Of a stretch of 43,947 nucleotides of DNA, positions 3,555 to 36,229 are shown piece by piece. Source of the stretch: Armatimonadota bacterium (GTDB lineage: Bacteria > Armatimonadota > UBA5829); the NCBI GenBank assembly GCA_026392045.1, contig JAPLCU010000011.1, forward strand, positions 1 through 43,947, in the 5' to 3' direction. The stretch's first letter is position 1, and each line of letters begins with the position of its first letter. The notes below the pieces were generated by a model that had not been told where the DNA came from, searched no databases, and saw only the letters and a list, made by a program, of their open reading frames with translations. Both the position numbers and the translations under genes were made by a program.

Positions 3555-3762
3555 TTAGCATGCTGCTCATCCTTCGAGAACCTCAGCGGCCAGAGTTCTG
3601 AGTTCTGAGTTTTGAGTTTTGAGTTGGGGAAGGGATGGGTCGGCTTAAATTTGTGAGGTTAGCATGCTGCTCATCCTTCGAGAACCTCAGCGGCCAGAGT
3701 TCTGAGTTCTGAGTTTTGAGTTTTGAGTTGGGGAAGGGATGGGTCGGCTTAAATTTGTGAGG
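3555..3762. repeat. 104-bp perfect tandem duplication
   Basis: Bases 3555-3658 and 3659-3762 are identical by eye. Each copy holds a family E element (CATGCTGCTCATCCTTCGAG...), an AGTTCTG/AGTTTTG heptamer array (3594-3628 and 3698-3732), GGGAAGGGA, and the first eight codons (MGRLKFVR) of the lptC frame. The first copy therefore carries a decoy start at 3635 that loses similarity at the junction. The rest of the 3442-3738 gap shows no gene. Confidence 0.9.
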
Positions 3763-4359
3763 AATAGTAGAACTATAATAATGCCGGTTTTGATCATTGT
3801 GCTTGGCGCGGTTTTTGTTTTGCTGGCGGGTTGTGGTCGGCAGAGCTCTAACACGCCTGCCAGGGCGCCTGTGACTGAGAAGAAGGCTGAACAGTTGAAG
3901 CCGGTTAAGCCCGTCGAAGAATCAGGCCCGAAGTTTGCGGTTCACGGAGAAAAGCCCACCTTGAACTGGGTGGAGAATGGTTCTCTGAGGATGCGGGCGA
4001 CCGCGCAGGAGTTGAAAGGCGATGAAATCAACAAGATCGCCGTGGCGAAAGATTTTTCCGGCGAAATGTATGAAAACGGCAAGATTTCAACTATGATGAC
4101 CGCACCGAAAGTGGTCGCCGATACCCCGAAGCGCATTGTGACTGCCTGCGACGGAGTGATATTGAAATCATTGGATCGCAAGACCGTGGTGAGCGCGAAG
4201 TGGATAAGATGGTTTGCCAGGGAGCAGAAGGTGATAGGCGTCGGCGATGTGAAGATCACCTCTGAAATGGGAAATATGACAGGAGCTGCTTTTGAAGCAG
4301 ATACAGCGCTTAAAACGCTTAAGGTGAAGGATTCCGCGAAAGGATTGGATATCAAATGA
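3739..4359 (+). CDS. lptC: LptC-like lipoprotein of LPS export
   Basis: A 206-residue protein with a short basic N-terminus, a hydrophobic segment (residues ~14-30) and a lipobox LLAGC, so it is probably an envelope-anchored lipoprotein. The remainder is a β-rich region with alternating polar/hydrophobic strands (for example MRATAQELKGD and IRWFAREQKVIGVGDVKI) as in LptC/OstA-type proteins. It overlaps lptA by 4 bases (ATGA) and leads lptA-lptB-lptF/G, which supports the role of linking the inner-membrane transporter to the periplasmic bridge. The start is uncertain: the ATG at 3739 lies in a duplicated repeat right after GGGGAAGGG, and a second ATG at 3781 (MPVLIIV) would also give a signal peptide. 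Confidence 0.75.
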   Translation: MGRLKFVRNSRTIIMPVLIIVLGAVFVLLAGCGRQSSNTPARAPVTEKKAEQLKPVKPVEESGPKFAVHGEKPTLNWVENGSLRMRATAQELKGDEINKIAVAKDFSGEMYENGKISTMMTAPKVVADTPKRIVTACDGVILKSLDRKTVVSAKWIRWFAREQKVIGVGDVKITSEMGNMTGAAFEADTALKTLKVKDSAKGLDIK

Positions 4360-31215: not shown

Positions 31216-31244
31216 TTGACAAGCGCCCAAACAGGTTGTAAACT
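31216..31244 (+). promoter_or_regulatory. trp operon promoter
   Basis: Consensus -35 TTGACA (31216-31221), 17-base spacer, -10 TAAACT (31239-31244). The transcript would start near 31251, ~45 bases before the leader peptide. Confidence 0.75.
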
Positions 31245-31295
31245 AGAATTACTATGGTTATCTCATTCTATTCAATCATACAAGGTGGCAGCGAT

Positions 31296-31340
31296 ATGTG
31301 GTATTGGCGACACTCCAATTTAAGTGGAGATGCCGCGTAG
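31296..31340 (+). CDS. trp leader peptide (attenuator)
   Basis: A 14-codon frame encoding MWYWRHSNLSGDAA, preceded by AAGGTGG at a normal distance. Two Trp codons flank a Tyr codon at positions 2 and 4. It lies between the trp promoter and a strong terminator hairpin. Its own RNA can fold as CTCCA/TGGAG with GGC/GCC outside (about 31306-31334), the classic 1:2 hairpin. The segment CCGCG (31333-31337) is complementary to CGCGG (31380-31384) in the terminator's left arm, which would give a 2:3 antiterminator. Together this is a textbook transcription-attenuation layout, read from sequence only. Confidence 0.85.
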   Translation: MWYWRHSNLSGDAA

Positions 31341-31376
31341 CCGTATGTCGTATAGGATAATAGACATGAACTTTCG

Positions 31377-31413
31377 AACCGCGGGCAGCTCCACCGGAGT
31401 ATCCGCGGTTTTT
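31377..31413 (+). terminator. trp attenuator terminator
   Basis: AACCGCGG pairs with CCGCGGTT, with an inner CTCC/GGAG stem, followed by TTTTT. It lies 36 bases after the leader-peptide stop and 178 bases before trpE. Confidence 0.85.
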
Positions 31414-31437
31414 GTGCAATAGATTTCAAGCGTGAAG

Positions 31438-31462
31438 CCGGGGATATCGTCCTCGGTTTTTT
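31438..31462 (+). terminator. Second terminator-like hairpin in the trp leader
   Basis: CCGGGGA pairs with TCCTCGG (one G-U pair) around a five-base loop, followed by six T. It could back up the attenuator. Confidence 0.6.
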
Positions 31463-31472
31463 GCGTAATTGA

Positions 31473-31567
31473 GTTATAAGTAATAAGTCGTAAGTTGTAA
31501 GTCAACCATCTGCTTCAACCCGCAGTTTGCTGATAACTACTTATAACTTAAAACTTATAACCTATGA
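31473..31567. repeat. Inverted pair of TAAGT-type heptamer arrays before trpE
   Basis: Left array 31473-31507: GTTATAA, GTAATAA, GTCGTAA, GTTGTAA, GTCAACC. Right array (~31534-31567) is the same family in reverse complement. Being inverted, they can pair in the mRNA just upstream of trpE; the right array supplies the ATG at 31564. Confidence 0.8.
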
Positions 31568-31590
31568 CCCATAAAAAAGGACAGCAGAAC

Positions 31591-33075
31591 ATGAGCGCTT
31601 ACTACCCAGAGAAAACCGAATTTATGAAGCGGGCCGCAAATGGCAATATGGCGCCGGTCTACAAAGAAATTTTGGCGGACATGGAAACCCCTGTCTCGGC
31701 TTTTAAGAAGATTGGAAGCGGCGAATATTCGTTCCTGCTGGAAAGCGTGGAGGGCGGGGAGCGTATGGCGAGGTATTCGTTCCTCGGCAGCAGCGCGAAT
31801 ATGGTGATCCAGAGCAAAGGATCCGAAATCGAGATCACCAGAGAAGGGAAATTGGAGCATATCACACTCGTTGCCGGTAAGGATGTGCTGGACGTGCTCA
31901 AGGCGGAGTTCGGCAAGCTCAGATACGTGCCGGACCCTGATCTGCCCCGGTTCTGCGGCGGCGCTGTGGGTTTTATTGGCTACGATATGGTGAGGTTCTT
32001 CGAAGACTTGCCGGACATGACCACCGACGACCTCCACATGCCCGATTGCACGCTCATTTTCACCGATACCCTACTTATATTCGACCATGTGCGCCACAGA
32101 ATCCGCGTGGTTTGCAATGCCAGCATAGATGGCGACGCAGCGGCCGCCTATGACCTCGCAATTCAGAAAATCGATTCGGTAATCGAACAACTTAGGCAGC
32201 CAATCGAGCTCAGCTACGAAAAGCGGCAAGTGGGCAAGCCCGAGATCGCTTCCAACTTCACCAAAGAGCAATTTGAAGACGCCGTGCGAACATGCAAAGA
32301 ATATATAGCCTCGGGCGACGCGATTCAGGTGGTGCTCTCGCAAAGGTTCAGCACAAAAGTGACTGCGGAGCCGTTCGATGTCTACCGCGCTCTTCGCAGC
32401 CTGAACCCATCGCCTTATATGTATTATCTGGCGTATGGCGACATCAAACTGATAGGTTCTTCGCCTGAGATACTTGTCACGGAAGAGCGGGGCAATGTGA
32501 CCATCCGGCCTATCGCAGGCACCCGCCCACGCGGCGCTACCCATGAGGAAGACCTTAACCTCGAGCGCGAGCTCCTCAAGGACGAAAAGGAGCGCGCGGA
32601 GCATATAATGCTCGTTGACCTCGGCAGAAATGACATCGGCCGCGTGTGCCGCTATGGTTCAGTGGAAGTTGACCAGCTAATGTCCATCGAGCGTTATTCG
32701 CACGTGATGCACATAGTTTCAAACGTTCGCGGCAGGTTGAGCATGGATAAGGACCAGTTCGATCTGCTGCGCGCATGTTTCCCTGCGGGCACCGTTTCGG
32801 GCGCGCCAAAGGTGAGGGCGATGGAAATAATCGACGAACTTGAGCCTACCCGACGCGGCTCCTACGCGGGTGCGATAGGCTACTTCAGCTACTCGGGTGA
32901 TATGGATACTTGCATAACAATACGCACTATTCTTATACAAAATGATACAGCATACGTACAGGCCGGAGCAGGTATTGTGGCGGACTCTGACCCCGCGAAA
33001 GAGTATCAGGAAACGGTCAACAAGGCGATGGCAATGATAAACGCCCTAAACACCGCTGAAGCAGGACTTGAGTAG
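31591..33075 (+). CDS. trpE: Anthranilate synthase component I
   Basis: A 494-residue chorismate-utilising enzyme making anthranilate with TrpG. The N-terminal regulatory part has VSAFKKIGSGEYSFLLESVE, containing the SFLLES element of the Trp-feedback site. The C-terminal catalytic domain shows GDAIQVVLSQRFS, LNPSPYMYYL, ETLVT-like SSPEILVTEERGNVTIRPIA, GTRPRGAT, AEHIMLVDLGRNDIGRV and FPAGTVSGAPKVRAMEII. The start is ATG 31591, which has AAAAGGA upstream; the ATG at 31564 lies in a heptamer repeat. It is the first structural gene of trpEGDCFBA, controlled by the leader described above. Confidence 0.97.
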   Translation: MSAYYPEKTEFMKRAANGNMAPVYKEILADMETPVSAFKKIGSGEYSFLLESVEGGERMARYSFLGSSANMVIQSKGSEIEITREGKLEHITLVAGKDVLDVLKAEFGKLRYVPDPDLPRFCGGAVGFIGYDMVRFFEDLPDMTTDDLHMPDCTLIFTDTLLIFDHVRHRIRVVCNASIDGDAAAAYDLAIQKIDSVIEQLRQPIELSYEKRQVGKPEIASNFTKEQFEDAVRTCKEYIASGDAIQVVLSQRFSTKVTAEPFDVYRALRSLNPSPYMYYLAYGDIKLIGSSPEILVTEERGNVTIRPIAGTRPRGATHEEDLNLERELLKDEKERAEHIMLVDLGRNDIGRVCRYGSVEVDQLMSIERYSHVMHIVSNVRGRLSMDKDQFDLLRACFPAGTVSGAPKVRAMEIIDELEPTRRGSYAGAIGYFSYSGDMDTCITIRTILIQNDTAYVQAGAGIVADSDPAKEYQETVNKAMAMINALNTAEAGLE

Positions 33076-35531: not shown

Positions 35532-36229
35532 CTCAAATCAAGGTCTGCGGGATCACGAATATCGATGACGCCATAGCCTGCGCCGAACTGGGCGCGGACA
35601 TGCTGGGCTTCGTCTTCGCAGACAGCCCCCGGCAGGTCAGCATTGAGCAAGTGATTGAGATAGTTCGGGAGATCAGTTCCATCCAGCCGAACCCTTCGAC
35701 GATACTCAGAGTGCTGGCTGGTATATCCCTCCAACACCCAACATCCAACAACCAACCCCTTGTTCGAGCCGTTGGGGTATTCGTCGAAGATCAGCAGATA
35801 GCAGAAATAATCAAGCGCTGCGGCCTTGATTTCGCTCAGCTTCATGGCAACCAAAGCGACGAAATCGCCCAAATGATCGGCAAAGAGCGAGTAATACGCG
35901 TAGGGCGAATCAAAAATGAGTCCAGCATAGAAGCGCTAAAGCAATATCCGACGGCAACCTATTACCTCTTAGACACCTACAAAAAAGGTCAGCCCGGCGG
36001 CACTGGTGAAACATTCAATTGGGAACTCGCAATCGCCGCGAAATCGCTCGGTAAGCCGATAATCCTATCGGGCGGCCTCAATCCTGATAACATTTTCGAT
36101 GCAATCAGAGCCGTTCGGCCATTTGGAATTGATGTATCAAGCGGGGTAGAGAAATCCTCCGGTAGAAAAGATTTGAAGAAAGTAAAGGAGTTCATTAACC
36201 ATGTGCGAGAAGCTGACAACGCTTCCTGA
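35528..36229 (+). CDS. trpF: Phosphoribosylanthranilate isomerase with a repeat-derived insert
   Basis: A 233-residue TrpF, longer than the usual ~205. The catalytic Cys is in [12 protein letters not shown] and the Asp in [35 protein letters not shown] and [16 protein letters not shown] bind phosphate. Between VREISSIQP and [11 protein letters not shown] the frame holds about 20 extra residues (around 58-77, including [12 protein letters not shown]) encoded largely by a CCAACAC-type heptamer array. This spot lies before the third β-strand of the barrel, in a loop. The start overlaps trpC (ATGA) and the end overlaps trpB by 29 bases. Confidence 0.94.
35731..35758. repeat. Heptamer array inside trpF (family F)
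   Basis: Four units CCAACAC, CCAACAT, CCAACAA, CCAACCC. This is the complement of the GGTGTTG flavour at 1895. Confidence 0.88.

Follow-up and report, generated by a model that had tools for sequence, protein, structure and literature searches.

The trp locus and its leader region

The window, i.e. the whole 43,947-nt stretch of DNA analysed here (contig JAPLCU010000011.1 of an Armatimonadota bacterium), carries the operon trpEGDCFBA from position 31591 to ∼38185, each gene having the expected Pfam families. The gene upstream of the putative attenuator is rpoN, encoding sigma-54 (Pfam). The leader region between them folds better than shuffled sequences (z = −2.9) and has the following features:

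31216–31244, + strand: sigma-70-type promoter (−35 TTGACA at 31216–31221, 17-nt spacer, −10 TAAACT at 31239–31244)
31254–31340, + strand: predicted leader peptide ORF of 28 codons, MVISFYSIIQGGSDMWYWRHSNLSGDAA, with AUG 9 nt past the −10 and stop UAG at 31338–31340
31296–31298, + strand: internal in-frame ATG preceded by AAGGTGG (31282–31288), a possible secondary start
31299–31307, + strand: putative regulatory codons Trp-Tyr-Trp (UGG UAU UGG)
31313–31317, + strand: segment 1 (CUCCA), pairing with 31325–31329 in the predicted anti-antiterminator 1:2
31324–31337, + strand: segment 2 (GUGGAGAUGCCGCG), overlapping the last leader codons and pairing with segment 3 in the predicted antiterminator
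31377–31394, + strand: segment 3, left arm of terminator 1 (AACCGCGGGCAGCUCCAC), with covariation in both 2:3 and T1
31396–31413, + strand: segment 4, right arm of terminator 1 plus U-run; UCCGCGGUUU at 31402–31411 can pair with segment 5
31377–31410, + strand: terminator 1 (T1), U-run at 31409–31413 (U5)
31435–31446, + strand: segment 5, left arm of terminator 2 (AAGCCGGGGAUA), alternative partner of segment 4
31450–31462, + strand: segment 6, right arm of terminator 2 plus U-run, in the conserved T1/T2 pairings
31435–31459, + strand: terminator 2 (T2), U-run at 31457–31462 (U6)
31470–31575, no strand assigned: AACTTATAAC-type palindromic dispersed repeat between T2 and trpE, outside the switch
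31591–33075, + strand: trpE (ATG at 31591; Pfam PF00425/PF04715), first gene of the operon

The promoter, leader ORF, T1, T2 and operon reported in the initial annotation were all found in the places given there; the T-run terminator and second T-run hairpin of that annotation are T1 and T2 with their U-runs. The AACTTATAAC-type repeat has 20 matches in the window's own genome, and a further cluster lies at 881–910 of the window. Within the operon, trpF (PRAI) has an apparent extra stretch of ∼30 residues with a repetitive CCAACACCCAACATCCAACAACC core (35670–35765); its Pfam match starts only past this stretch, and no second copy of the corresponding DNA was found in the window's genome.

Conservation of the element within the order

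The same element was found in 14 genomes of the window's order (window included), made up in each case of the promoter, an ORF with W-x-WR, segment 2 (GUGGAG...), T1 and T2. It precedes trpE in the window and in genomes G011, G007, G002, G014, G018, G017 and G016, and a trpS-like gene followed by trpE in G013, G001, G006, G003, G008 and G015 (trpS was assigned from protein reading and position). The window genome's own trpS, located elsewhere in the genome, has no such leader in front. TTGACA and the −10 hexamer (mostly TATACT) were kept in 14/14 sequences, with a spacer of 18 or 17 nt and a TATACT-like −10 in the relatives.

A covariance model detected exactly one strong copy per genome (E-values from 1e-40 to 1e-67 in the 14 genomes). 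The model was built from the same 14 sequences that were searched, so this result speaks for uniqueness per genome and not for independent discovery; the independent signs that the element is real are covariation and codon-level conservation. A second match of the model in G003 (C165) was rejected, as it consists of plain terminators past a response-regulator gene with no attenuator.

Translation start of the leader peptide

The initial annotation described a leader of 14 codons starting at ATG 31296 (in-frame ORF 31296–31340, MWYWRHSNLSGDAA, with UGG at 31299 and 31305). This start has in its favor a Shine-Dalgarno candidate, AAGGTGG, at good spacing in the window; however, a start codon at the equivalent position is present in 0/13 relatives, where the frame opens at an ATG located 9–22 nt past the −10. 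The distance is 9–10 nt in 11 of the 14 sequences of the order, while in three relatives it is 20–22 nt, with an AGGAG- or AAGGA-like stretch. Constraint at the codon level also extends upstream of 31296. In seven relatives, the stretch from codon −11 to codon −4 relative to the first Trp codon (SYLIIHGG in most of them) has pN/pS of 0.08 vs 0.77 for the three codons after this core, and a nonsynonymous fraction as low was seen in 0/500 shuffles. These codons lie before the Met of the initial annotation, so the stretch upstream of it appears to be translated. Judged from the aligned frames, the leader most likely starts at ATG 31254 and has 28 codons, the Met at 31296 being internal and non-conserved; initiation at 31296 we regard as unlikely.

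Given the 9–10 nt distance in 11/14 sequences, the transcript would start at the AUG or within about three nt of it, and the window's leader mRNA, with AUG 9 nt past the −10, is probably leaderless. In the window genome (G000) a strict promoter followed by ATG 7–10 nt past the −10 was found in 19 places (e.g. C112:31216–31256) against one for the reversed pattern; thus, this organism probably makes frequent use of leaderless starts.

A G-rich stretch, GGNGG, located ∼10 nt before the first Trp codon (31282–31288 in the window), recurs in most of the order and, besides encoding Gly-Gly, could have a role as an internal SD-like pause site.

The leader frame proposed in the initial annotation proved to be conserved, with the W-x-W codons in all 14 sequences (UGG NNN UGG CG) as well as the constrained codons upstream. 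The tyrosine input raised there for the Trp-Tyr-Trp order was rejected: the middle residue varies in the order (G, A, V or Y), which leaves such an input unsupported.

Strong constraint on the SYLIIHGG core would also be expected if the conserved leader acted mainly as a peptide, in trans or as a nascent-chain stall signal, with attenuation being secondary; the peptide peTrpL of Sinorhizobium does work in trans (PMC7298713). Still, the N-terminal sequence is lost in G001, G006, G015 and G017 and only partially present in the window, whereas the Trp codons and pairings are retained in all genomes. A mainly peptide-acting leader is, in our estimate, quite improbable.

Alternative RNA structures and the attenuation model

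The anti-antiterminator 1:2 (CUCCA/UGGAG and variants) keeps four to five of its five pairs in all 14 sequences. In the antiterminator 2:3, pairing across the 14 sequences reaches 91%, and both sides have changed in 10 cells (0/500 shuffles); slid versions of the same pairing, used as a control, are 34–49% paired. Compensatory changes are exemplified by GUGGAGUC/GACUCCAC in G006, GUGGAGCGU/ACGCUCCAC in G016 and GUGGGGUC/GAUCCCAC in G015. T1 and T2 taken jointly reach 96% pairing and 12 cells with changes on both sides (again 0/500 shuffles). The shuffle and slide controls remove the relatedness of the sequences only partly; the slid versions together with the types of compensatory change favor structure.

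Since 2:3 and 3:4 (T1) share segment 3, they are mutually exclusive, and both covary, in agreement with the exclusive hairpins of the initial annotation. The latter had also paired the CCGCG directly 5′ of the stop codon UAG with the left arm of the terminator. This pairing is conserved but longer than described, i.e. GUGGAGAUGCC-GCG with CGC-GGGCAGCUCCAC. The initial annotation made its reading depend on conservation of the leader frame and of this pairing in relatives; both are conserved, and the reading stands.

The element has a short ORF with Trp codons, evidently translated, between promoter and trp genes, mutually exclusive hairpins, and intrinsic terminators with U-runs (T1 and T2) before the first gene. 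It is very probably a ribosome-mediated transcription attenuator of the trp operon. Sequence comparison shows the promoter, leader frame, Trp codons, 2:3, T1 and T2 to be conserved; to these we add by inference the leaderless initiation, ribosome positions, pairing 4:5 in the window genome and behaviour in vivo. RNA polymerase would start at or within a few nucleotides of AUG 31254, and a ribosome would translate the leader. With ample Trp-tRNA the ribosome would reach UAG and cover segment 2 (or segment 1 would pair with segment 2), 3:4 and 5:6, i.e. T1 and T2, would form, and transcription would stop. With Trp-tRNA in short supply the ribosome would stall at UGG 31299 or 31305 and cover segment 1; segment 2 would then take segment 3, blocking T1, the freed segment 4 would take segment 5, the left arm of T2, and polymerase would read into trpE.

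Folding under alternative constraints, suggested in the initial annotation, did switch the window RNA between T1/T2 and 2:3/4:5. We masked an assumed ribosome footprint of 13 nt from the A-site codon. With no ribosome, or with a ribosome past the stop codon, T1 and T2 form with probability 1.00. With the ribosome stalled at the second Trp codon and RNA extending to the T2 loop, 2:3 and 4:5 have probabilities of 0.97 and 1.00; for the full RNA the values are 0.82 and 0.86, with 0.13 for T1 and 0.14 for T2. At the stage when T1 is just complete, T1 is still favored at equilibrium (0.94) in the stalled state, and so the early 2:3 pairing must win kinetically. In other attenuators, too, 2:3 has to form first.

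Second terminator and a possible six-segment relay

The initial annotation listed the second T-run hairpin without giving it a role. Conservation of T2 needs an explanation, as an unregulated terminator between the attenuator and the operon would defeat the attenuator. A plausible one is a relay, in which 2:3 frees the right arm of T1 (segment 4), which pairs with the left arm of T2 (segment 5) and disarms T2. In other families we consider a relay likely; for the window it is plausible, with about an even chance that the step 4:5 itself is used. In the window 4:5 has an energy of −13.2 kcal/mol with one internal mismatch, and the relay and T1/T2 states are well balanced in folding. Over the order as a whole, energies for 4:5 fall at about −13 to −20 kcal/mol (G002, −7.5), and 11/13 sequences carry a mismatch.

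In a classical single-stage attenuator T1 alone would be regulated, and T2 would be a leaky back-up or a relic of duplication, passed with some probability regardless of the state of the leader. Several observations on the window's order agree with such an arrangement: covariation of 4:5 within the order is not significant, 4:5 is no stronger than pairings with the T2 arms of other families (−14.9 vs −15.7 kcal/mol), and T1 and T2 are alike, two similar terminators cross-pairing automatically. Speaking against a relay, the stalled folds of several relatives (e.g. G002, G003 and G017) did not show the relay, and in most relatives T2 is preferred at equilibrium once complete. Against the single-stage arrangement, T2 is conserved and covarying, and without regulation it would reduce trp expression under all conditions; G008, from the same family as the window, has lost the U-tract of T1 and yet retains T2. 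Hairpin 1 has no usable U-tract in family f18 (loci L206, L207 and L255) and in part of f23 (L228, L231, L251 and L252), while T2 has one, so T2 must be the regulated terminator there. We hold the single-stage arrangement to be a serious contender with a somewhat less than even chance.

Where hairpin 1 has no U-tract, T2 is the sole terminator, and any action of the leader on it must run via hairpin 1 or a direct but weaker pairing. The direct leader:T2 pairing is weaker than 4:5 in 12 of 14 cases, about equal in G276 and close in G280. These families lend the relay stronger support than the window's order, where 4:5 is mismatched and non-covarying. For seven family groups the within-genome T1R:T2L energies sum to −127.5 kcal/mol vs −98.9 kcal/mol with T2 arms exchanged between groups; the former sum was equalled in a fraction 0.0006 of permutations.

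A control scan of 2.3 Mb, both strands included, yielded no more than 14 tandem-terminator pairs: ten after a Trp cluster, one more after a Phe-rich leader and three others. The T1R:T2L energy relative to that of T2 was 0.58–0.99 for the attenuators and 0.12–0.55 for the three other pairs, a suggestive contrast from a small sample.

The tandem layout was also seen outside Armatimonadota. In two Desulfobacterota-like loci, L075 and L081 (Deltaproteobacteria/Desulfobacteria MAGs), the last 330 nt before trpE contain WWWW and WSWWW leaders, each with two cross-pairing terminators behind it. In locus L013, from another lineage, a Phe/Tyr-rich leader ORF, MLFYFANLIFKTFCWRFYFIFIKSAQHP, precedes a DAHP-synthase-like gene on the minus strand (reverse complement, ∼3710–3930) and is followed by two tandem, cross-pairing terminators; divergent from it, on the plus strand (∼1163–1360), is a Trp leader with tandem terminators.

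We give slightly better than even odds to a six-segment relay being used in Trp attenuators (and one Phe/Tyr-rich attenuator) of Armatimonadota, Desulfobacterota and at least one other lineage, with a hairpin 1 lacking the U-tract serving in some of them as a messenger only.

Range across Armatimonadota

The comparison set comprised 291 genomes of Armatimonadota, the window's own among them; other members are Armatimonadetes MAGs, a Chthonomonadales MAG, a Candidatus Zipacnadia MAG and an uncultured Chthonomonas. Of 99 regions of the phylum scanned over the final 550 nt ahead of trpE, 31 have a short ORF with a Trp cluster and, after it, a strong terminator; the same scan with other residues gave 3 for Cys, 3 for Met, 6 for His and 4 for Tyr. 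With the order and further genomes included, we examined 63 leaders from ∼23 family-level groups. AUG is located 5–11 nt past the −10 in 31 of the 56 phylum leaders with a recognizable promoter. No Trp leader was seen in families f4 and f5 of the same class, nor in many others. Trp leaders and terminators before trp genes in ∼23 family-level groups indicate that attenuation is common in Armatimonadota. The initial annotation had suggested leader-peptide attenuation in this phylum, and it is borne out by the element in 14 genomes and the similar leaders elsewhere.

In G004, G005 and G012, all from the family to which the window belongs, a T-box (E-values from 4e-17 to 5e-14, with scores below the Rfam gathering score) stands before a divergent trpE (∼43% identity); no other T-box matches were found. 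These T-box loci, which replace the leader-peptide attenuator, are:

L122, 1191–1449: T-box before divergent trpE
L123, 169–420: T-box before divergent trpE
L124, 102–353: T-box before divergent trpE

Where trpE was replaced, judging by these loci, the regulator is exchanged together with the gene, a T-box standing in place of the attenuator.

T-boxes this close to the window's lineage raise the question of whether the window's element could itself be a T-box riboswitch or be under protein-mediated (TRAP-like) control. At the gathering threshold, however, no Rfam family was found in the window or in 20 loci of relatives (in the window neither the enterobacterial Trp_leader nor T-box matched), the T-box core motif is absent, and the leader does contain Trp codons in a conserved, translated ORF. 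Control of either kind is extremely improbable here.

Comparison with known attenuators

Like the enterobacterial trp leader (trpL, Rfam Trp_leader), the element has Trp codons in a short ORF, the alternatives 1:2, 2:3 and 3:4 and a U-run terminator before trpE. It differs in having no Rfam match, a longer and probably leaderless leader, a second terminator, W-x-WR instead of WWR and, in some relatives, trpS between leader and trpE.

The leader RNA rnTrpL of Sinorhizobium meliloti begins at the trpL AUG and is leaderless (PMC7298713); it is likewise a Trp attenuator, and the window's leader probably resembles it in starting at the AUG. Its sequence is unrelated, with a WWW run and one terminator described (PMC7298713), and trans functions are known there. 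Actinobacterial attenuators of trp operons and trpS also have a leader with UGG codons, an antiterminator and a terminator; conserved gGCC-rGCy-GGCC triples were reported (PMC1262725). They come from a different phylum and have a single terminator (PMC1262725). The erm(K) attenuator of Bacillus licheniformis has two adjacent terminators, as cited in PMC4335068; by that paper's description, a stalled ribosome controls two successive intrinsic terminators as proposed here, though erm(K) senses macrolides and not an amino acid.

Among open-licence papers, the nearest precedents are the leaderless trpL (PMC7298713), actinobacterial trp/trpS (PMC1262725) and erm(K) (PMC4335068). None was found in this literature that joins Armatimonadetes with a leader peptide and attenuation, and the ranked results of a broader search contained none with Armatimonadota. 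The proposed second stage, a hairpin handing the decision to a second terminator, appears to be an unusual, new feature. If the relay is real, attenuators can hand their decision from hairpin to hairpin; this would account for tandem terminators before expressed genes and could offer RNA engineering a double-lock switch. Testable questions on initiation and peptide function arise from the probable leaderless start and the conserved peptide. Ribosome-stall attenuation is a common mechanism, rather than an exception, in this deep-branching diderm phylum, in which hardly any genetics has been done.
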